Notes under the pieces: generated by a model
The model's database searches: none
What the model was told of the DNA's origin: nothing
Seen by the model: only the letters and a program-made list of their open reading frames with translations
Shown: in pieces, positions 10,231 through 22,919 of the stretch
Position numbering within the stretch: the first letter of the stretch is position 1
How the letters are laid out: the number at the start of each line of letters is the position of its first letter
Program-made: the position numbers and the translations under genes
Assembly: GCF_000317145.1 (NCBI RefSeq)
Contig: NC_019697.1
Span: 2,356,001 to 2,420,000 of the forward strand
Reading direction: 5' to 3'
Origin: Chamaesiphon minutus PCC 6605
GTDB taxonomy: Bacteria; Cyanobacteriota; Cyanobacteriia; Cyanobacteriales; Chamaesiphonaceae
Length of the DNA stretch: 64,000 nt

Positions 10231-11151
10231 TTAATCCGGTTGTGGATATAAATTACGTTCTACCTTGCGATTTTCGACGACATGTTCGGTAATAATTTCC
10301 TTCGCTACATCTGGAGTCACCCGCGCATACCAAGTATGTTCTGGAGCGCGATTCTCATTCTGAGAGGCTACGCCAACGTCACCCGAATAAAATACGATTG
10401 GCCCCATTTTACAGACCTCTAGACAGCCAGAAGTTATTAATTCAATGTTTTCTAATCCTGACTCTGCTAACTGCCGTTCTAGAGCCTCATGCACCGATTT
10501 CCAGTCACGTCCGGCATTGCAACGAGTAGAGCGACATACCGATATATATGGACAATTTAAAGGATTAGATTCATAGGGAATATCCATCGTGCCCAATACA
10601 TAAATCTGCCGTAACTTGTCGTACAATCCTAACTTGGCTAGATTGGGCTTATGCTCTGGTAATAAATCTTCCGCTTCGCCAATAAAAGCATTAGGTAAAA
10701 ATAATGTCATCATTTTTACTCCCGCTCCATTCCAGAATTGAATTCCCCAGCTTCGCGCTTCACCTTCTGCATTCAATCGCCGATACAAAGCGGCTCGACT
10801 CACCCGCCGTACTTGACGCAAAGATTCGGGAGTACGCCCAGTTGCACCGCCCTGATTTTCCGCCACACATAAGTGCATGTGCCAGCTTTCGGTAACTACC
10901 GTTAGATAGCCATCATAAATCCGACAAATTTTCGGTGGAGCAGTGAATTCTAATTCTAAAACACTCCCATCTACCATGTGTCCCAAGCCCACTTCTTGCC
11001 AATGTTCTTGGAATAGTGAGTGTAAAAGTGGCCCCAATACATCTAGATTAGTTGAAAAATCTTCATACTCGATCGAATTACCATTATAGGTATCTTCTCG
11101 TTCTACTTTCTGTAATGGTGTCACCCGACGTTCAAAAGTTGTAGCTGTCAT
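10231..11151 (-). CDS. Two-domain protein with C-terminal thioredoxin-like [2Fe-2S] ferredoxin
   Basis: A 306-residue soluble protein. The start at 11151 follows GAGGA, 8 bases upstream; a longer frame to 11265 overlaps the receptor gene and lacks such a site. The N-terminal half has a small domain (LHSLFQEHWQEVGLGHMVDGSVLELEFTAP ... WHMHLCVAE) of unknown function, perhaps chelate or heme related. The C-terminal third has a thioredoxin-fold ferredoxin ligand pattern at Cys206, Cys211, Cys243 and Cys247 (CRSTRC and CLEVC). This suggests reduction of an imported iron chelate or electron delivery, by inference. At 10362-10378 a repeat sequence GAGAGGCTACGCCAACG is read in frame within the coding region near residue 260. 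Confidence 0.75.
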   Translation of the reverse strand: MTATTFERRVTPLQKVEREDTYNGNSIEYEDFSTNLDVLGPLLHSLFQEHWQEVGLGHMVDGSVLELEFTAPPKICRIYDGYLTVVTESWHMHLCVAENQGGATGRTPESLRQVRRVSRAALYRRLNAEGEARSWGIQFWNGAGVKMMTLFLPNAFIGEAEDLLPEHKPNLAKLGLYDKLRQIYVLGTMDIPYESNPLNCPYISVCRSTRCNAGRDWKSVHEALERQLAESGLENIELITSGCLEVCKMGPIVFYSGDVGVASQNENRAPEHTWYARVTPDVAKEIITEHVVENRKVERNLYPQPD

Positions 11152-11164
11152 CAAATTATCCTCT

Positions 11165-13300
11165 TTAAAATTTCCAATCGATCCCAGTCCGAAATGTCCT
11201 CCCGGCATCAGGAAAGCCAGCAAACAGTTCGTACCTCTGGTCAAAAATATTCTGGACGCTAGCATTGAGGGTTACACTGCGATCGCTATTCATTGGTGCG
11301 ACAAAATTAAAATCAAAACTAGTAAATCCAGATAAAAACTCTGTGTTTGTATTATTGGTAGGATAACCACTGAGCGAATTTAAAGCTAGCGAACTATACC
11401 AACCAAAAGTATTTTCATAAGATACCCCCATACTCAATTTATCCGCACCTGCAAACCGCAGCTCTTTTCCCACTACTGCTAAGTTCGTATCTTTTTTAAT
11501 CTGAGGATTGTTGAGAGTATAATTAACAAATCCATAGAAATTTGGAGCCAGCCTTGCATTTAATGATGCTTCGATCCCCTGCGTCTGTACCTCACCAATA
11601 TTAGTAAAAGTTCCCGATATGCCATTGACAGGTGGTTGAATACTTTGGAATGCAATGACATTACTAATATTGTTCTGAAATGCCGTCAACCGTAATAGTC
11701 CAAAGTCACCCAACTTTTGGTCTACACCGACATCGAAACTATTCCCAATTTCGGGTAATAAATTAGGGTTGCCAATGAATGTAGTATCGACAGAAAACAG
11801 ATTTGATAAAGTCGGAGTCCGAAAATTCCGAATATAATTGGCACGAAGAGTTGTCGCCGAATTCAGATCCCATTTAATGCCCAGTGCGGGAGAAGTCGCG
11901 CTACCATTTGTCAAGCTACTAAAATCTTGCCGTAGCCCTGCTGTCGCTCGTATCTGCGGATTGAGATCGACATTGTACTGAGCGAATAATGCACCCTGAG
12001 AAATAGTGCCATCATAACCAACTGTCTGAGTTCCAAGCGCAATATTATTAGTAGTATTTCGATTATTAGTATTGCGATAATCAAAGCCGTAAGTAATATT
12101 TTGAGTTGGCGTAATCTGCCAATTGTGCTGAGTTTGAATGCCTAACGTTTTTTGTTTATTATCAAATTGGCGCAGAACTTGGGGCGTTACTGTCTTGACA
12201 ACTTGTCCGTTGGTAACAGATAGTGATTCGGCAAAAGCAGTACGGTTATCAAAGCGGGTACTCAAATTATCATAATAAACTCGCCCGGTCAGGGTAGAAT
12301 CATTACCATTACCGAGTTTTTGGTCTATCCCCACATCGAATAAAATTTGGTCGGTATACTTCCGATTAGCATCGGTGAGCGTATTAAAAAATCCCTGTCC
12401 GAATTGGGGAGTAGGAATCGGTACGCCACCTGGCGATCCTTGATTTTTGAACAGGAGTATACTGTTGAAACTTAATTTTGTGCGATCGCTCAGATCGACA
12501 TCTGCTCGTACTCGTAAGTTATCATATTTAACATCATTATTGACGCGCGTACCTGAAAAGTTGGCAGCAGGAATCGAATAAGCATAGTTATTATTCGCCT
12601 GAATCAGATCGTAACCAATCAGCCAGCCAATATTGCCATCTCTTTTACTGGCATTGACACCGAACTTGGTATAGCCGAGATTCCCGACTTCGGCTTGAGT
12701 GCTAAAGGTCAGTTTGTCGCTAGTTGGGCGACTAGTCACGATATTAATAATACCGCCGATCGCGTCCGAACCATAGAGGGTAGATCCACCGCCAGGTAAC
12801 ACTTCAATTCGATCGACGATACTCGTCGAAAATTCACTCAGATCGAAACCCCCAGAACCCAAGTTATTAATCGGGCGACCATCCAATAATATCAATACCT
12901 GTGTCCCGTTACTGCCTCGAATAAATTGATTGCTCAGGACATTTACTTCGGTTCCCACCGTTCCCGCGCCCAAAATCCCTGGTAAAGATTGAAGTGCTTC
13001 GCGCACCGTGCGCGCTCCTTGCGCTTTAATTTCGTCTTTATTGATAACGTAAGCTGGGCGGGTAGAATCTTTGAGCGTACCTTCTTTACGGAAGGGTGAG
13101 TAGATGGGTTTATTTAATAAACGCTCGCCATAGATGTTGATTTCTAGCTCTTCGACTTTTTCTGGGGCTGCTGCTGGCGGTGGTGGTGGCGGGGGTTCTT
13201 GAGCAAGGCTAGATTGCTGGATATCAAAACTGAACCTCAGCAACACAGTAATAATGAGGCTTTCAACCAGACGGAGATAAGGAATAGTTTTAGCGGACAT
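11165..13300 (-). CDS. TonB-dependent outer-membrane receptor
   Basis: Complete TonB-dependent receptor of 711 residues. A signal peptide (ITVLLRFSFDIQQSSLAQ) is followed by a poly-Pro linker at about residues 36-43 and a TonB-box-like ELEINIYGERL. The plug domain has TVREALQSLPGILG, FIRGSNGTQVLILLDGRPIN and RIEVLPGGGSTLYGSDAIGGIINIVT. The 22-strand barrel ends with the usual terminal aromatic residue (WKF). It is likely first in the operon with the ferredoxin-domain gene, whose start is 14 bases beyond this stop, and the binding protein. A Fur-like box lies about 70 bases upstream. The ligand could be a ferric siderophore or another metal chelate. Confidence 0.95.
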   Translation of the reverse strand: MSAKTIPYLRLVESLIITVLLRFSFDIQQSSLAQEPPPPPPPAAAPEKVEELEINIYGERLLNKPIYSPFRKEGTLKDSTRPAYVINKDEIKAQGARTVREALQSLPGILGAGTVGTEVNVLSNQFIRGSNGTQVLILLDGRPINNLGSGGFDLSEFSTSIVDRIEVLPGGGSTLYGSDAIGGIINIVTSRPTSDKLTFSTQAEVGNLGYTKFGVNASKRDGNIGWLIGYDLIQANNNYAYSIPAANFSGTRVNNDVKYDNLRVRADVDLSDRTKLSFNSILLFKNQGSPGGVPIPTPQFGQGFFNTLTDANRKYTDQILFDVGIDQKLGNGNDSTLTGRVYYDNLSTRFDNRTAFAESLSVTNGQVVKTVTPQVLRQFDNKQKTLGIQTQHNWQITPTQNITYGFDYRNTNNRNTTNNIALGTQTVGYDGTISQGALFAQYNVDLNPQIRATAGLRQDFSSLTNGSATSPALGIKWDLNSATTLRANYIRNFRTPTLSNLFSVDTTFIGNPNLLPEIGNSFDVGVDQKLGDFGLLRLTAFQNNISNVIAFQSIQPPVNGISGTFTNIGEVQTQGIEASLNARLAPNFYGFVNYTLNNPQIKKDTNLAVVGKELRFAGADKLSMGVSYENTFGWYSSLALNSLSGYPTNNTNTEFLSGFTSFDFNFVAPMNSDRSVTLNASVQNIFDQRYELFAGFPDAGRTFRTGIDWKF

Positions 13301-13369: not shown

Positions 13370-13388
13370 TGAGAATGGTTATCATTCC
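13370..13388 (-). promoter_or_regulatory. Fur-box-like palindrome upstream of TonB receptor
   Basis: TGAGAATGGTTATCATTCC is palindromic (GAATG...CATTC) and close to the Fur consensus. It lies 70 bases before the receptor start at 13300, in the usual place for an iron-repressed promoter. Confidence 0.65.
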
Positions 13389-13553
13389 CACAATATATCA
13401 TCAAAACTGAGAGTCGATCGATCCTAAAAAAATAGTTGCTAAAAATTATCACTAAAAGTAAAGAAAAACTTCTAGTAATTAACGTCAGTTCGGGTTAAGG
13501 ATATTGGCTTCGTTCTTGACCCACCGCCGATTAAAATCGGGGCTAATAGTGCA

Positions 13554-13599
13554 AAGTCCGCCTGCGCGGACTAATATCCTAGTCCGCGCAGGCGGACTT
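13554..13599. repeat. Perfect 19-bp inverted repeat (AAGTCCGCC family)
   Basis: Arms AAGTCCGCCTGCGCGGACT at 13554-13572 and the complement at 13581-13599. It could form a stable hairpin or cruciform. A related palindrome AAGTCCGCCTATGCGGACTT is at 16051-16070. Confidence 0.85.
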
Positions 13600-13707
13600 C
13601 GCATCATGAGCAGAGACTTCCAGTCTCTAGGCTCTTCTTATCCCGAACTGAGGTTAATTAGCTTGAGCTAACATCCTAAAGACAAGTACTGTAATGATGA
13701 ATTTTGC

Positions 13708-14109
13708 CTAGATGCTTATAGGTATCTCAATGCTAGGAACGATCCCAATTACGCTTTTTCTGAGTCGTTCGGGACGCTCCGACCATTTCATCGTGCCGTC
13801 TGGCTTGCTGTGGTAGAGACTAGCACACTCCAAAATTGACTGAGATACCTCAGCTAAAGCAGTACGATCTAGATCGCCAAATAGATAAGTCGATTTACCA
13901 GCCGCAGCAAAAGCGACGACGCAGGGACGATTGCACGCGCCCATACATTTAACTGGTTTGACCTCAAAGTCTTCAGCTAATGGGTTTGTGGCTAATTGGG
14001 TCGTTAATTCTTGGTGCAGTAAATAACCGCCGCTATTGCCGACTTCTCGGCCATTTTGCCAATTACCAGCGCAAGATTGACACACGAAAATTGTGTGTTT
14101 GTCGTTCAT
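13708..14109 (-). CDS. DUF1636-family predicted metal-binding protein
   Basis: A 133-residue cytoplasmic protein with five Cys at positions 10, 13, 55, 59 and 63 (VCQSC and CMGACNRPC). This is the layout of DUF1636 (COG5469), a thioredoxin-like family with a probable metal or Fe-S site. Such genes tend to sit by cobalamin, CobW or zinc-response genes, and here a CobW-like gene diverges from it. The shared 311-base upstream region carries two Zur/Fur palindromes, so metal-dependent repression is likely. The biochemical role is not known to me. Confidence 0.8.
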   Translation of the reverse strand: MNDKHTIFVCQSCAGNWQNGREVGNSGGYLLHQELTTQLATNPLAEDFEVKPVKCMGACNRPCVVAFAAAGKSTYLFGDLDRTALAEVSQSILECASLYHSKPDGTMKWSERPERLRKSVIGIVPSIEIPISI

Positions 14110-14323: not shown

Positions 14324-14338
14324 TGATAATTATTATCA
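14324..14338. promoter_or_regulatory. Zur/Fur-type operator, perfect palindrome
   Basis: TGATAATTATTATCA is a perfect 7-1-7 palindrome in the divergent region between DUF1636 and CobW-like genes. It matches the TGATAATNATTATCA form known for zinc/iron Fur-family repressors. Zur versus Fur cannot be told by eye; the gene content favours zinc. Confidence 0.7.
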
Positions 14339-14355
14339 AATTAAATCGATCTAGC

Positions 14356-14373
14356 GAGAATGATTATCATTCC
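14356..14373. promoter_or_regulatory. Second Zur/Fur-type operator
   Basis: GAGAATGATTATCATTCC, palindromic around GATTATC, lies 48 bases before the CobW-like start and 18 bases from the first box. Two boxes in tandem suggest tight metal-dependent control of both divergent units. Confidence 0.7.
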
Positions 14374-14420: not shown

Positions 14421-15194
14421 ATGGATCGGCATCCCATCTATCTAGTGACAGGGCCATGCGGTTCTGGCAAAACTACCTGGATTCACCAGCAGCTCACCAC
14501 CAGCACCAAACCTAGTGCTTATCTCTGTCTGGGAGCCGATGCTACCCCGATCGATCTCACCTACATTACAGCAACTTGCCCCCATGTCAAGCCGATTTCG
14601 GCGGGTGCATCTTGGACGCAGCTAGCCGAAATTCAACCGTTGTATGTGGAGATTGCCCCCCAATTAGATTTAGCTAAACTACAGTTACCTGTTGCGATCG
14701 AATCTTGTCAGCGAATTGCGATCGTCCCTAAATGTTTAGTCGAGAGCGAATATCACGATTGGGCGAGTCAAACCCTCATCAGTGAAGTCACTGAGAAAAA
14801 TATTGTGCTGACTGCATCGCCAAGATGGGGATTGACAGGAGAAGTCCTAGATCCCGCAAGTTTAAACGTATTTTGGGATGAATTAATTCAAGGAGCTTAT
14901 GGCGAAGTTGCCAGAGCTAAAGGTATTTTTGAGATCGTCGATGGTCGATCGTTTTATTTTAGTTTTGGGGTGGGTTATCCCGATGCAACTTACTTTGAAT
15001 TGCCATTACCGCCAGTCTTGACAGGCAGGCCGACACGATTTAGTGGATTGGAAGTTGTGGGAAATAACTTCCAACCGCAATTAATTACAGAAACGTTGGA
15101 AGAGTGCGGTTTAGACGATCGTGCCCTGGATTATTACCAAGCACAAATTAGATCCCAATTAGAAAACGAATCACCAGAAGAAGTAGCAGTATGA
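14421..15194 (+). CDS. CobW-like P-loop nucleotide-binding protein
   Basis: A 257-residue protein with a Walker A loop GPCGSGKTT at residues 11-19, near the start as in CobW/COG0523 G3E GTPases. I do not see the CxCC metal-binding motif of that family, and the C-terminal half (FEIVDGRSFYFSFGVGYP..., GLEVVGNNFQPQLITETLEECGL) only loosely recalls the CobW C-terminal domain. It may be a diverged metal chaperone or insertase. Two Zur/Fur-like boxes precede it. Its stop overlaps the ATG of the next phosphoesterase gene (ATGA type overlap), so the two are coupled. Zinc allocation during starvation is the best guess from context. Confidence 0.65.
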   Translation: MDRHPIYLVTGPCGSGKTTWIHQQLTTSTKPSAYLCLGADATPIDLTYITATCPHVKPISAGASWTQLAEIQPLYVEIAPQLDLAKLQLPVAIESCQRIAIVPKCLVESEYHDWASQTLISEVTEKNIVLTASPRWGLTGEVLDPASLNVFWDELIQGAYGEVARAKGIFEIVDGRSFYFSFGVGYPDATYFELPLPPVLTGRPTRFSGLEVVGNNFQPQLITETLEECGLDDRALDYYQAQIRSQLENESPEEVAV

Positions 15195-16000
15195 AAATAG
15201 CAGTGATGTCTTGTATTCACGGTAACTATGAAGCTTTGAATGCGGTGTTATCAGACATCGATAAACAGCGGGCAGAAAAAATTTTTTGTTTGGGCGATCT
15301 CGTCGGTTATGGCCCACATCCGAATGCAGTTGTCGAGATGATTCGATCGCTAGATATTCCCACAGTCCAAGGTTGTTGGGATGAAGATATCGTCGAAGGT
15401 TTGAATGCTTGCGAATGCAGTTATCCATCAATTTTGGCGGAAAAACGGGGCAAGAAAGCACATGAATGGACGAACGACCAAATTCATCCTGAAGTGCGAG
15501 AATATCTGGCGCAATTACCGTTAAGCTTGCGCGAGGAGAATCTTTGCTTCGTACATGGAAGCCCTCACAATCAACACGAGTATTTGATGCCAGAAGTGAA
15601 TGCTTTTACCGCATTAGAACGGGTAATGGCGACGGGTGCCGATGTGCTATTTTGCGGACATACTCATGTTCCCTACGTGCGGACGCTCGATGCTGGGCAG
15701 TTGGCGGTTAAGGTGAAGCAGCCAGAGGGGAATAGCACCAAGCAGTTTACCGCACCGCTGAAACAGATTATCAATGCTGGTTCTGTGGGCGAACCACGTC
15801 ACGGTCGTCCGAACGCGACTTATGTAATTTACGACACGGACGATAAATTAACGACGTTGCGGGAGGTAGAGTATGATTATCAGCTTACCTGTCAGGCGAT
15901 TATCGATAACGGGCTACCCGCTATTTTTGCATGGCGGTTGGCGCAGGGTTTGGAATATGCCGAACGCGCCGAAGATCCGACTCATGTGTGCGAACGATAG
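15191..16000 (+). CDS. Metallophosphoesterase with Cys substitutions at metal ligands
   Basis: Calcineurin-like phosphoesterase of 269 residues (COG0639/YfcE-like). Motifs in order are MSCIHGN (usual SDIHGN), GDLVGYGPHPN, VQGCWDED (usual GNHDE), FVHGSP and FCGHTHVPYV, plus NAGSVGEPRHG near the end. The first metal-ligand Asp and the Asn of GNHD are both Cys here. This could retune the site from Fe/Mn to zinc, or make it a zinc-storing or sensing protein, by inference. It overlaps the CobW-like gene by four bases and probably shares its Zur/Fur control. The GHTH motif is intact, so catalysis is not excluded. Confidence 0.85.
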   Translation: MKIAVMSCIHGNYEALNAVLSDIDKQRAEKIFCLGDLVGYGPHPNAVVEMIRSLDIPTVQGCWDEDIVEGLNACECSYPSILAEKRGKKAHEWTNDQIHPEVREYLAQLPLSLREENLCFVHGSPHNQHEYLMPEVNAFTALERVMATGADVLFCGHTHVPYVRTLDAGQLAVKVKQPEGNSTKQFTAPLKQIINAGSVGEPRHGRPNATYVIYDTDDKLTTLREVEYDYQLTCQAIIDNGLPAIFAWRLAQGLEYAERAEDPTHVCER

Positions 16001-16078
16001 GGTTTCGTCTCGCGAAATAGTCAGCGGTTGAAACCGCCGCTAGTGATGCGAAGTCCGCCTATGCGGACTTTGCACCAT

Positions 16079-16224
16079 GAGAAGGTGTCTGAAAAGCATA
16101 GATCTAAATCCCCCCAACCCCCTGAAAAAGGGGGAGTAAGAGTCTTAGTCCCCCTTTTTCAGGGGGATTTAGGGGGATTAACAACCGACGATCGGAGCCA
16201 ATAAGACTTTTCAGACACCCTCTG
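16079..16224. repeat. MITE-like element with GGTGTCTGAAAAG ends
   Basis: Inverted ends GAAGGTGTCTGAAAAG (16081-16096) and CTTTTCAGACACCCTC (16207-16222) enclose mirrored CCCCCTGAAAAAGGGGG palindromes. The ends resemble those of the element at 5389-5605, so both belong to one family. It lies between the two phosphoesterase paralogues. Just before it is the AAGTCCGCC palindrome at 16051-16070. Confidence 0.75.
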
Positions 16225-16287: not shown

Positions 16288-17007
16288 ATGTGGGCGATCG
16301 CGAGTGGAATTGAAGGTAATTTAGCTGCATATGAGGCAGTAGTGGCAGACTTGCGGAAGTCGCGCCAGGAAGTGGAGAATTTCTATTTATTAGGCGATAT
16401 TATCGGCCCAACCGCCGAGAGTAATCGGCTGATTAAAAGAATTCAGCAGCCGCGTAATGGGGAGCCAACACCGCTAGTTTGTCAGGGTTGGTGGGAAGAA
16501 CAAATATTGATTCTTCATGCCTTGGGGCGGACGGGAGAACCGACAGAATTAATCGATCAATATGGGATCGAGATGACAAAAACACTCTGGGATGCGATCG
16601 ATGCAACTACTCTAGAATGGGTGCGATCGTTAGAGTTTGGATTTGTCGAACTAGATTGCTTTTTAATTCATGGTAGTTCGCTCTCAGTTAGCGATGAATT
16701 GACACCGACGATCGATCCGATTCATGCGATCGATCGGTTATCGCGGATGGATGCGAATCAATTATTCTGTGGTTGATCGGGTTTGGCTTTTGAATATCAA
16801 ATTGAATCTGGCAGTCTGAATAGTCAAGTTCAAACATTAGATAAACTAACCGATCCAACTCCGACGATATTAAGTCCACAGCGAATTGTTGGGGTGGGTT
16901 CTGTAGGAAAGATTGAAGGTAAAGCTAGCTACACGATCTATCATCCAGGTAGTAATAAGTTAGAATTTAAAACGGTTCGATATGGAGCTAAAAAGGGCTT
17001 TGGTTAA
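16288..17007 (+). pseudogene. Degenerate phosphoesterase-like paralogue with in-frame TGA
   Basis: A paralogue of the preceding gene. It reads MWAIASGIEGNLAAYEAVVAD (matching SDIHGN), YLLGDIIGP, CQGWWEEQI (matching GNHDE), FLIHGSS and then LFCG at the GHTH position. A TGA at 16774-16776 follows, after which the same frame continues SGLAFEYQIESG and RIVGVGSVGKIEGKASYTIYHPG to a stop at 17007. Nearly all metal ligands are lost, so it was already a pseudoenzyme before the stop arose. The TGA could come from a CGA by one transition, or be a sequence error. If translation stops there, a 162-residue product results. The uninterrupted downstream frame suggests the stop is recent. Confidence 0.75.
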
Positions 17008-17564
17008 AGACGATAGATAAGTACTAAGCTGTCGAACATTTAAATCACATATGAGATTTTTTGAAAGCGGGGAGCGATGTGCGCTCGTCTGGTTTCCAGA
17101 CGGGTTAGCACATCAAGACAGCGGGGAGTCTTGTCTCGCTTGCTTGGTGCAACACATGCTCCTCCAATCTCCGCGTGATTGCATCCGCTTTCCCGTCGGG
17201 TTTCCCGACGTTGGCGTTGGCGGAGCCTGCCGTAGGCATAGCCTCTGCGTTAGCAGATACGCGAGCCGCCGCTCCCCACTCCCCGCTCCCCGCAAAATAG
17301 TAGCCTTATTTACTTCGTAGACTATTATCAGCATGGATAGCCATCCTTAGTAGCGAATATCGGCTCTTCTCAAGTAGAGAAATTACTAGCCGAAAAATAT
17401 TGATAGTCTCGATCTTTTTCTGAACTCACAAATTTATTTTATGAGTTAACTAAAATCTCTGATGAGTTAAAAGCTCTCTAGGAATCGATCGGTATCTAAG
17501 TTGACAGATGAACGAGTGCGATACTGAATTAATAGAGACAGGAAAAAGTATCGGAGAGCTTGTC
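17008..17564. repeat. Repeat-rich intergenic region
   Basis: At about 17060-17300 the sequence is a mosaic of short repeats: GCGGAGCCTGCCGTAGGCATAG, GCGTTAGCAGATACGCGAG, TCGGGTTTCCCGACGTTGGCGTTGGCGGAG and GGTTTCCAGACGGGTTAGCACATC. Related pieces recur at 40745-41000. Open frames on both strands here are repeat products. The final 200 bases before 17565 hold the likely promoter of the binding-protein gene, with no site I can name. Confidence 0.65.
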
Positions 17565-19034
17565 ATGAATATAAAAAGATCGCCTCGGAGAAAGTTTTTA
17601 TTTTCCATCTCGTTGTTTTCTTTAAGTTTAATTACTGCTTGCTCTACTGGCGTTGCCAGCAATCCTGTTGACACAGGGAGTTCTTCGAGTGGAAAAAAAG
17701 TAATTCGGATTGCGATCGCCACTCAAGATCAGACTATTAATACAGCAACGGGCGGCCCTATTATTCGCGAGGAAAAACTTCTGGAAAAGTATTTACCTAA
17801 GACAGGTAAGTATCAGAACGTCGAATACAAAATTGAATGGTCGAGTCATACCTCTGGCCCCCCAATTAACAACAAAATGTTGGCAAATCAAGTTGATATT
17901 GGCATGATGGGAGATTTCCCCTTAACCATCAATATGAATACTTTTAAAGAAAAAGGGGCTGGGGTAAATAGTCTTTATATTGCTACGCTATCTACGGGTG
18001 CAACTGGAGCGGGAAATGCCATCATGGTGCCCAAAGATAGTCCGATCCAAAGCATTGCCGATCTAAAAGGTAAGCAAGTGTCTGTACCCTTTGGTTCGGC
18101 TGCCCATGGCATGTTATTGGGGGCATTAAAGAAAGAAGGTATCGATCCTGAAACCGAAATCAAACTAGTCAGCCAAGCTCCTGAAGTTGGGGGAACTAGC
18201 CTCAAGACTAATAAGATTGATGCCCATGCCAACTTTGTACCGTTTGGTGAGCTATTTCCCTTGCGCGGATTTGCCCGCAAGATTTTTGATGGTGCAGAGC
18301 TAGGTGTGCCCACATTTCATGGTGTGGTGGTGCGTTCGGATTTTGCCAAGGAGAATCCTGAAATAGTAGTGGCTTATCTGAAAGCTCTGTTAGAAGCCAA
18401 CAAAATGGTGCGCGAACAGCCAGAAGCAATGGCCACCAAAATGGAGAAGTGGACGAGTGTAGAAAAAGAAGCAGTTTATATGTTTCTAGGTCCTAATGGT
18501 CTTCAACAGGTTAGTCCAGCTATTTTGCCCGTTCATCGTCAAGCCTTAACTAATAGTGTGGCGATGCTCAAACAACTGGGTAAATTAGATGCCAAAGTCA
18601 ATGCAGAAGAGTTAACTAAATTGGCTGATGATAGTTACTTGAAGCTGGCAGCAAAAGAACTAGGAATGGATTATGACAAGATGGCTAACAAGGATGAAAA
18701 ATCCGCGATTACAGGCGCAGATGCGGCAACTAAGCAAGCAATTGGCGATCCCAAACTAGCAGCTCAGATTTGGGTCAAAGGTGAAGATAAAGTTAGAAAC
18801 TTTGCTTCGATCGAGAATATGATTGCCGATCTGAAGAAGCTTAAAGCCGAGGGGAAGCAAACTGGCAGTACGGTATTTGTCCACGATCGCAATCGAGGCT
18901 GGAAGTTGGTTGCTGACAATTCTTTCTTTGTGCGGAAGGGTAACAACATATCAGCATTTTTGACCGAGAAAGCTGCGAAGTCTTATGCTAATAGTCAGGC
19001 AGGTTCTAAGGTCTTAGCTTTTAAATCACTTTAG
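17565..19034 (+). CDS. Sulfonate/taurine-type ABC substrate-binding lipoprotein with NosL-like C-terminal domain
   Basis: Periplasmic lipoprotein of 489 residues. The start at 17565 is favoured by a GGAG upstream and by the lipoprotein signal that follows (lipobox ending SLITAC, Cys26). Residues about 45-330 form an NMT1/SsuA-type binding domain with YKIEWSSHTSGPPINNKMLANQVDIGMMGDFPL and KGKQVSVPFGSAAHGMLLGALKKEGI. The last 90 or so residues (DKVRNFASIENMIADL ... VFVHDRNRGWKLVADNSFFV ... SAFLTEKAAKSYANSQAGSKVLAFKSL) resemble NosL, a Cu-binding lipoprotein domain. The fusion makes it unusually long. Permease and ATPase genes follow. The domain is homologous to the C-terminal half of the LysR regulator at 20931-22919. 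Confidence 0.85.
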   Translation: MNIKRSPRRKFLFSISLFSLSLITACSTGVASNPVDTGSSSSGKKVIRIAIATQDQTINTATGGPIIREEKLLEKYLPKTGKYQNVEYKIEWSSHTSGPPINNKMLANQVDIGMMGDFPLTINMNTFKEKGAGVNSLYIATLSTGATGAGNAIMVPKDSPIQSIADLKGKQVSVPFGSAAHGMLLGALKKEGIDPETEIKLVSQAPEVGGTSLKTNKIDAHANFVPFGELFPLRGFARKIFDGAELGVPTFHGVVVRSDFAKENPEIVVAYLKALLEANKMVREQPEAMATKMEKWTSVEKEAVYMFLGPNGLQQVSPAILPVHRQALTNSVAMLKQLGKLDAKVNAEELTKLADDSYLKLAAKELGMDYDKMANKDEKSAITGADAATKQAIGDPKLAAQIWVKGEDKVRNFASIENMIADLKKLKAEGKQTGSTVFVHDRNRGWKLVADNSFFVRKGNNISAFLTEKAAKSYANSQAGSKVLAFKSL

Positions 19035-20930: not shown

Positions 20931-22919
20931 CTAAGTCTGGTGGAGAAATTCCGGCTGAATCCAGCGTTCGAGATCGATCTGCGTTAAATTTTGGTTATTG
21001 GGAATCTTGCTCAGTCGATCGATATGGAGTGCGATCCAGTCTGGACGAATGACGGTTTCGGAAAAGAAGCGGGCGGTTGGGGTTGATTGGTAGGCACCAG
21101 TGAGGATTTCTGTCACTAAATCTAGTTCCAACCGCGTCCATTGCGCCACCTGAGCGGGAGCAGATGGGGTATGGTGATACCAATATTGAGCCGCTTTGAG
21201 AGCTTGGAGATAGGCAACGACAACTTCTGGATAGCGATCGGCTAAATCGTGATTAACCACCACGCCATAAAATGAAGGGAGGCGATCGAGATTGTCATCG
21301 ATGAGATGACGAAATTTACCCTGACGGCAAGCCACATCGTGAAACGGGGCAAAATGCGCATAGCTATCGGCTAAATGCAGGGGAAAGTTAAAGCCTTTGA
21401 CGGCTTGGATGCTATCGAGGGAAATCAAGTCCACCTCATCTAGCAGGTGGGCTGCTTGTAGCGATCGCATTACCATTCCATGGGCGGAAGATCTCAACGG
21501 TACGGCGATCGTTTGCCCGCGTAGATCGGCGATCGTTTCCACTTTTGATTGGTGGGGAACGATGAAGGCATTGCCAGAACCATCGGGATTACTAGAAACA
21601 AAACTAACTAGACGAGTGTTGTATCGATCTGAATCGGGATCGGGTAAAGCACTGAGCAGGAGTGGATAGTCGCCTAAGATCCCAATATTTAACTTCCCTG
21701 AATCCAGCCCAGTCACAATTGGTGCGCCCGTAGCAAAATCCTGCCATTCAATCTGAAATTTGGTACCGCTGTAACGACCGTCTTGCGGTAAAAAATGCGA
21801 TAGTAGCTGCAAGCGTTGGACGATCAACCCGGCGGTGACGGCTGGGATTGTGCCATTTTGAATCCCAATCGAGAGGGTAATTGTTTCTGGACGGTGGTGA
21901 CTACTCGATCGCAGGGCAAAGCTGGGCGATCGCATCTGGATTGGCCGATCTTTCGATGGAGCGGAGGATTTTCGATCGCTTTGTAACAATTCTATGAATT
22001 TCTGAGCGGGTGTTAAGTCGGCTGCTCCCCGCAATGATTTAGGTGACTTATGGTGGTGTAAATTATGGACATCACCAATGCCCTTGGGGGTCAGCAAAAA
22101 TATATTGCCTGATAAAGCAAATTCCTGGAGCGAAATCGCTACCAAGTTGCCAGTTTGACAATCCAACTGAAATTCAAAATTAGAAGCAAAGCCTAAATAG
22201 GCACCTTGAGTGAGATAGACGCGCATCAGGCTCGTGGTATCCACCGTTTCCACATGGGGAAAGTCTGCCCAAGAAAGACCAATTTCGGCTAAGCGAGCCT
22301 CCAATACTTGGCGACTAGGGGATTCTGGACTGGAGATCGCCCAACGATGCTGTTTTAGATCGTTCAGACTCACCCACTTTTTGGTGACGAGGGGATGACT
22401 GGGGGAAACAAACAGCGCATAGTGAATCGGTGCGATCGCGATCGATGAAATTTCGGCAACATCGGCAAAACTCAGATCGGAGCAGCCCAGATCGATCTCG
22501 TTATTTGTCATGCTCCGATATAACAATTCGGGCGAATCAAAAATATGACACTGGGTTTGTAAATTTGGGTATTTTTGGCGATAGGCAAATAATTTTGCGG
22601 GCAACCAACCATTGCCGATATCGGCAGTACAGCCAATTTTAAGTGTACCAGATTTACCTTTGCCAATCCGCTCTATTTCTTGCAATAGATCGTTCTCAAC
22701 TTCAATTAATTTGGGTCCATGTTTGAGCAAAAATTCTCCCACGCTTGTTAATTGAATTTTGCGGCCTAGTCGGTGAAATAATGGAGTCCCCAGCTCTGTC
22801 TCTAACGATTTAATTTTGGCACTAACTGCTGGCTGGGTGAGATTGAGCACATCAGCAGCTTCCGTAAAACTCAAGTGGCGAGCTACTTCCAAAAAGACCC
22901 GAATCTGATAAACTTCCAT
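20931..22919 (-). CDS. LysR-type regulator fused to an SsuA-like binding-protein domain
   Basis: A 662-residue regulator, twice the usual LysR length. Residues 1-65 are the LysR winged helix (FLEVARHLSFTEAADVLNLTQPAVSAKIKSLE). Residues about 90-315 are a normal LysR effector domain. After a basic linker, residues about 346-640 form a second ligand domain like NMT1/SsuA proteins. This part matches the lipoprotein at 17565: FLPQDGRYSGTKFQIEWQDF, LNIGILGDYPL, and AVPLRSSAHGMVMRSLQ. No signal peptide separates them, so the domain is cytoplasmic and probably senses the substrate the transporter imports. It diverges from the flavoprotein operon at 23216 and converges with the transporter operon, so it likely controls one or both. 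Confidence 0.92.
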   Translation of the reverse strand: MEVYQIRVFLEVARHLSFTEAADVLNLTQPAVSAKIKSLETELGTPLFHRLGRKIQLTSVGEFLLKHGPKLIEVENDLLQEIERIGKGKSGTLKIGCTADIGNGWLPAKLFAYRQKYPNLQTQCHIFDSPELLYRSMTNNEIDLGCSDLSFADVAEISSIAIAPIHYALFVSPSHPLVTKKWVSLNDLKQHRWAISSPESPSRQVLEARLAEIGLSWADFPHVETVDTTSLMRVYLTQGAYLGFASNFEFQLDCQTGNLVAISLQEFALSGNIFLLTPKGIGDVHNLHHHKSPKSLRGAADLTPAQKFIELLQSDRKSSAPSKDRPIQMRSPSFALRSSSHHRPETITLSIGIQNGTIPAVTAGLIVQRLQLLSHFLPQDGRYSGTKFQIEWQDFATGAPIVTGLDSGKLNIGILGDYPLLLSALPDPDSDRYNTRLVSFVSSNPDGSGNAFIVPHQSKVETIADLRGQTIAVPLRSSAHGMVMRSLQAAHLLDEVDLISLDSIQAVKGFNFPLHLADSYAHFAPFHDVACRQGKFRHLIDDNLDRLPSFYGVVVNHDLADRYPEVVVAYLQALKAAQYWYHHTPSAPAQVAQWTRLELDLVTEILTGAYQSTPTARFFSETVIRPDWIALHIDRLSKIPNNQNLTQIDLERWIQPEFLHQT

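Follow-up and report, generated by a model that had tools for sequence, protein, structure and literature searches.

Many cyanobacteria encode a metallophosphoesterase (MPE)-fold protein, here named A, that has a cysteine in each of its two metal pockets and forms an obligate trio with a shortened CobW-like protein, C, and an inactive MPE-fold protein, B. We propose, at a probability of roughly 40%, that A is a thiolate-rich metal carrier which is run by C and supported by B in a Zur-controlled three-part complex. The genes were analysed in a stretch of 64,000 nucleotides from Chamaesiphon minutus PCC 6605 (NC_019697.1, positions 2,356,001 to 2,420,000), hereafter the window, in which they have the following positions:

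14421 to 15194, plus strand: C, a 257-aa shortened COG0523/CobW-like P-loop protein without CxCC.
15191 to 16000, plus strand: A, a 269-aa MPE-fold protein with Cys8 and Cys62, one per metal pocket.
16288 to 17007, plus strand: B, an MPE-fold pseudo-enzyme in which SGIEGN, GWWEE and FCG.SG (FCGRSG) replace the metal motifs.

Protein A matched the Pfam family Metallophos_2 with an E value of 9.1e-24 (84.7 bits, cut-off of 27), which places it in the MPE fold. Metallophos_2 and Metallophos were the only Pfam domains present, and a DNA-binding domain was not found in this search. The closest solved fold to the AF2 model of A was 3rqz from Sphaerobacter thermophilus (Foldseek E value, 4e-20), and SapH (3qfm) was also near. 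Since the model (pLDDT of 74.4) was weak at residues 65 to 79, 124 to 138 and 258 to 269, distances between cysteines are not claimed. The MPE superfamily has the ligand motifs DxH, GD, GNH[D/E], H and GHxH. The translated open reading frame of A carries MKIAVMSCIHGN at the N terminus, QGCWDED at residues 60 to 66 and an intact FCGHTH, and the equivalents of the MPE motifs are C8-x-H10, D36, C62-W63, H122, H157 and H159. Three metal or catalytic positions are thus substituted (D8 to C, N62 to C and H63 to W), and five of the seven ligands (H10, D36, H122, H157 and H159) are retained. The initial annotation was right in reading SDIHGN as changed to SCIHGN and GNHDE to GCWDE with GHTH kept; beyond it go the additional loss of the catalytic His, further invariant cysteines, including a CxC, and the obligate trio. 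The codons concerned are:

15212 to 15214, plus strand: Cys8, the Asp of DxH in other MPEs, in the alpha pocket; Cys in 121/121 loci.
15374 to 15379, plus strand: Cys62-Trp63, the Asn-His of GNHD/E elsewhere, in the beta pocket and at the catalytic His; 121/121.
15410 to 15418, plus strand: Cys74-Glu75-Cys76, a CxC common to ars-operon MPEs of the Car1 type; 121/121 in A.

To define the conservation of these residues, genome_contigs was scanned with one genome per species (84,980 species), and 266 stretches with relatives of A were obtained, of which the best 80 were kept. These best 80 were all from cyanobacterial records, except for one metagenome-assembled genome labelled Gracilibacteria, and each was at least ~75% identical to the A of the window. 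Orthologues were picked by sequence similarity, so the best 80 of 266 favour close relatives; a sample of the phylum added distant ones, giving 121 A loci with 113 distinct proteins. C8, C62, W63, C74, C76, C155, C234 and C267 were invariant in all 121 loci and C33 was present in 118 of them; every locus had CxH in place of DxH and GCWD in place of GNH[D/E], and D36, H122, H157 and H159 were kept throughout. Homologues in the same gene context with the normal Asp and Asn, which would have spoken against the initial annotation, were thus absent among the 121. By comparison, the closest non-cyanobacterial relatives have retained Asp and Asn, and all 12 plasmid-borne outgroup proteins, 9 of them in ars operons, had these residues at the two ligand positions. 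The A sequences formed one clade in the tree (99/99 support), and mean column identity was 83% for A, 67% for B and 39% for C. Hence, A resembles the calcineurin-like MPEs (PF12850) in fold, GD, H122, GHTH and most ligand positions but differs from them, in every orthologue, by the changes of DxH Asp to Cys, GNH Asn to Cys and GNH His to Trp, and also by further cysteines that never vary and by a tail with a conserved HxC. Conservation in 121/121 loci excludes chance or a local oddity as the source of the Cys changes. A phage origin or spread of A was also rejected, since IMG/VR contained no relatives and phage records gave one distant match.

The co-occurrence of the three genes was determined in 194 genomes of the phylum, each at least 90% complete. 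Gene A was found in 43 of the 194 genomes, and both C and B were present in all 43; four more, weaker matches to A in one family were ordinary MPEs, as judged from one of them (L147). C occurred without A in two genomes (G005 and G074) and B without A in five (G074, G103, G113, G133 and G139), and these copies were fragments or fusions left by deletions. C, A and B are thus an obligate trio, with intact C found only alongside A and B. The raw Fisher p value for co-occurrence was 4e-44, uncorrected for shared ancestry. In three genomes a partner lay apart from A, with B on another contig in G064 and G072 and C about 20 kb away in G181; since the trio is complete in these genomes despite the distant partner, the association goes beyond physical proximity. 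The trio is missing from most of the sampled genomes and is, therefore, accessory.

The stop codon of C overlaps the start codon of A (ATGA), and the exact overlap was retained in 79 loci. C has the Walker A P-loop and CobW_C domain of the COG0523/CobW family: CobW_C was matched in 42 of 46 family members, and the P-loop GK was present in 106 of 112, the remaining 6 being without that region. The AF2 model of C (pLDDT of 87.8) had the Zn-bound YjiA GTPase as the top fold match (E value, 1.7e-7). C is like the COG0523/CobW zinc metallochaperones YjiA and ZigA in its P-loop, CobW_C domain and Zur-linked context. It differs in that neither the window protein nor the A2 consensus contains the CxCC metal motif, in having about 90 aa less than the CobW-CxCC neighbour (346 aa) and in being intact only with A and B. 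By eye, the base-specificity motif of C appears degenerate, and GTP hydrolysis may have been lost. C was interrupted in G011 and G181. B is related to A, with an hhalign probability of 99.9% (E value, 1.9e-32), and has only D36 and H122 left of the ligands. In the window, B contains an in-frame TGA at 16774 to 16776 (FCG*SGLAF), where three close Chamaesiphon relatives (L003, L004 and L005) have Arg and an open frame; this could be early decay, a strain polymorphism or a sequencing error. Short palindromic or inverted intergenic repeats were seen by eye at 13530 to 13600 and at 16038 to 16220, the latter between A and B, two genes that directly adjoin each other in many other loci.

The initial annotation had also pointed to Zur-like boxes upstream, and these are indeed real. 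They lie in the intergenic region between C and a divergent gene:

13708 to 14109, minus strand: DUF1636 gene (Pfam DUF1636, 8.9e-38), divergent from C.
14324 to 14338, strand not assigned: Zur-like box 1, TGATAATTATTATCA, a perfect 7-1-7 palindrome TGATAATNATTATCA.
14359 to 14371, strand not assigned: Zur-like box 2, AATGATTATCATT, a perfect AATGATNATCATT core of the RegPrecise cyanobacterial Zur box.

The palindrome TGATAATNATTATCA, which we take to be a Zur consensus, had two matches in the window at one mismatch or fewer, with 0.02 expected by chance; at two mismatches or fewer, it was found in the 4 kb upstream in 92 of 121 loci (2.2 expected). Zur-like boxes were also scored against the RegPrecise consensus for cyanobacteria, as quoted in PMC9337993, allowing up to 4 mismatches in 16 positions. 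By this measure, a box was present within 400 bp upstream of the P-loop of C in 50 of 91 loci (5.6 expected) and, at the same lax threshold, within 3.5 kb upstream in 84 of 87 loci (27 expected). The small-genome members L119 and L122 had Zur-like boxes as well. Among the neighbours at 113 loci, an FAD/NAD(P)-binding protein was the commonest (50), followed by COG0523 with CxCC (47), HemB (40), FolE (39), ZnuA (17), ZnuB and ThrS (13 each) and HisI (11); in Anabaena or PCC 7002, several of these families are known to be targeted by Zur (PMC6103462, PMC4628125). At least one of CobW-CxCC, FolE, HemB, ZnuA, ZnuB, ThrS and HisI was found in 58 of 80 long loci, and they were absent from the fetched stretch in the other 22, that of the window included.

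In PCC 7002, the locus on pAQ7 (L128, 28717 to 30488) has decayed: C ends after 147 residues, A has been lost, B consists of its second half only, and an unrelated open reading frame lies between. Judged by position and GTPase similarity, G0131 of this strain is the truncated C, and the "phosphoesterase" of the locus most likely represents the end of B. In the zur mutant of PCC 7002, G0131 was derepressed, together with the gene for the FAD/NAD(P)-binding protein, whereas two genes beside G0131 were not (PMC4628125). The latter are the broken B and the inserted open reading frame, and since A is missing, the trio is not intact there. Joint decay of the trio thus accounts for the published puzzle that G0131 was up and the adjoining genes were not. 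The transcriptome of PCC 7002 was, therefore, rejected as an argument against Zur control of the phosphoesterase, because the locus is without A and has only fragments of C and B. In the cyanobacterial Zur studies consulted, an incomplete part of the literature, the trio genes were unmentioned or present as a broken copy only, and in the open literature, again incompletely covered, no mention of them was found beyond the remark on PCC 7002 (PMC4628125).

A precedent for one of the two Cys changes is found in the eukaryotic enzyme Dbr1, in which the DxH Asp is likewise a Cys; this residue forms a stable Zn-Cys bond, which shields the neighbouring Fe (PMC10470207). Exchange of this residue (C14S) abolished activity, whereas with the Cys in its alpha pocket Dbr1 is active and has an Fe/Zn centre (PMC10470207, PMC4176325). 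By analogy, a metal-binding role for C8 of A is well founded. The DxH Asp is said to be conserved in all MPEs but Dbr1 (PMC10470207); A is a second MPE lineage with Cys at this position and has a Cys in the other pocket in addition. For the latter change, Asn to Cys in the beta pocket, we found no precedent. A further differs from Dbr1 in being bacterial, operon linked and Zur associated, and Dbr1 has retained the GNHE Asn and the catalytic His and possesses a recognition loop and a C-terminal domain of its own, the latter not found by Pfam in A. The noncatalytic protein Drn1 binds directly to Dbr1, which is a Cys-containing MPE (PMC10470207), and we propose, by analogy only, a similar pairing of B with A.

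If the carrier reading is correct, A would be a former binuclear MPE rebuilt for a thiophilic metal, Zn(II) being the likeliest, which C8/H10/D36/H159 and D36/C62/H122/H157 would hold; the CxC at residues 74 and 76 is near in sequence. Its partners in a fixed complex would be C, a CobW-like NTPase now devoid of a CxCC site, and B, an inactive protein of the MPE fold. At low zinc, Zur would release the operon, and the nucleotide cycle of C would gate loading of A and release of its metal towards client proteins, as in a split metallochaperone. In favour of this reading are the invariance of C8, C62, W63 and the CxC, the co-occurrence of the trio, the ATGA overlap, the Zur-like boxes, the zinc-starvation neighbours, the derepression of G0131 in PCC 7002, the Zn-Cys bond of Dbr1 and the likeness of C, itself without CxCC, to Zn-bound YjiA. 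That the trio is a new three-part zinc metallochaperone, in which a CobW-type NTPase gave up its metal site and leaves the carrying of the metal to a dead phosphoesterase with Cys in both pockets, is a tentative proposal and could well be wrong. If the trio does deliver zinc, it would show a CobW protein working without a metal site of its own and how cyanobacteria, small-genome ones included, cope with little zinc. The possible loss of GTP hydrolysis in C, the absence of the listed zinc genes at 22 of the 80 long loci, the nonsense codon in B of the window, the interrupted C of G011 and G181 and the accessory distribution of the trio argue against a carrier. The zinc-tuned site suggested by the initial annotation gains support from the invariant Cys pair, the Zur-like boxes, the zinc-starvation genes and the Zn-Cys bond of Dbr1 (PMC10470207); zinc as the metal of A remains putative, as does a role as sensor or store. 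The Zur-like boxes and invariant cysteines would also fit a zinc store or a sensor acting in regulation, but a store made only under zinc shortage makes little sense, the Pfam search gave no DNA-binding domain for a regulator, and the strict tie to an NTPase-like protein and a pseudo-enzyme would be left unexplained. We consider this reading very unlikely, and less likely than the two that follow.

A redox enzyme and a re-tuned hydrolase are both serious rivals to the carrier. As a phosphohydrolase, A would have its Fe/Zn or Zn/Zn centre re-tuned for resistance to oxidation or for work at low zinc and would act on a nucleotide or RNA; the five retained ligands, the active Fe/Zn centre of Dbr1 and the closeness of A in fold to 3rqz and to the Ap4A hydrolase SapH are in line with such an activity. 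However, the GNHE Asn and His of Dbr1 correspond to Cys and Trp in every sequence of A, and its partner B is without nearly all ligands. We regard a hydrolase as unlikely. The CxC pair of A suits a redox enzyme equally well as a carrier. Cys74 and Cys76 of Car1 are essential for arsenate reduction (PMC12124457), and the ars-operon MPEs of the Car1 type are 35 to 37% identical to A, and six of them carry the CxC in the corresponding position (74/76 or 75/77); a redox role of A is, therefore, possible. The C74-x-C76 dithiol of a Car1-like thiol-redox enzyme would reduce an oxyanion or an oxidised protein thiol or zinc site, and C8 and C62 would either bind a metal in a supporting role or take part in the relay. 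The FAD/NAD(P)-binding protein fits this activity, being the commonest neighbour of A and, in PCC 7002, the product of a gene that loss of zur derepresses along with C. On the other hand, the ars MPEs keep the Asp and Asn of the binuclear site, for which A has Cys and Cys, and the tree does not decide whether the CxC was inherited from a common ancestor. Also, the setting of A is zinc-starvation loci with a CobW-like partner instead of ArsR/ACR3, and no arsenic-resistance family was found among its frequent neighbours. With ligands and context both different, a simple arsenate reductase was rejected as the identity of A. We regard a thiol-redox enzyme as unlikely, to the same degree as a hydrolase. 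Two Bacteroidota ars operons (L127, 4001 to 5512, and L135, 3001 to 4493) contain tandem MPE pairs, one member with CxC and one without, which recall the pairing of A and B.

The window held further observations around the trio. A Zur/Fur-like box with 2 of 16 mismatches lies at 13370 to 13390, about 70 bp upstream of a TonB-dependent receptor gene (11165 to 13300, minus strand), and the receptor may, therefore, share the zinc control. A DUF7676 protein (10231 to 11265, minus strand), the C-terminal part of which is weakly like 2Fe-2S ferredoxins (NCBIfam, below the cut-off), is encoded close to a separate DUF1636 gene. Furthermore, a 662-aa LysR-type regulator (20931 to 22919, minus strand) has a C-terminal part that, by eye, is like the NMT1/SsuA-like binding protein encoded at 17508 to 19034, an apparent fusion of a regulator with a transporter-like sensor domain.
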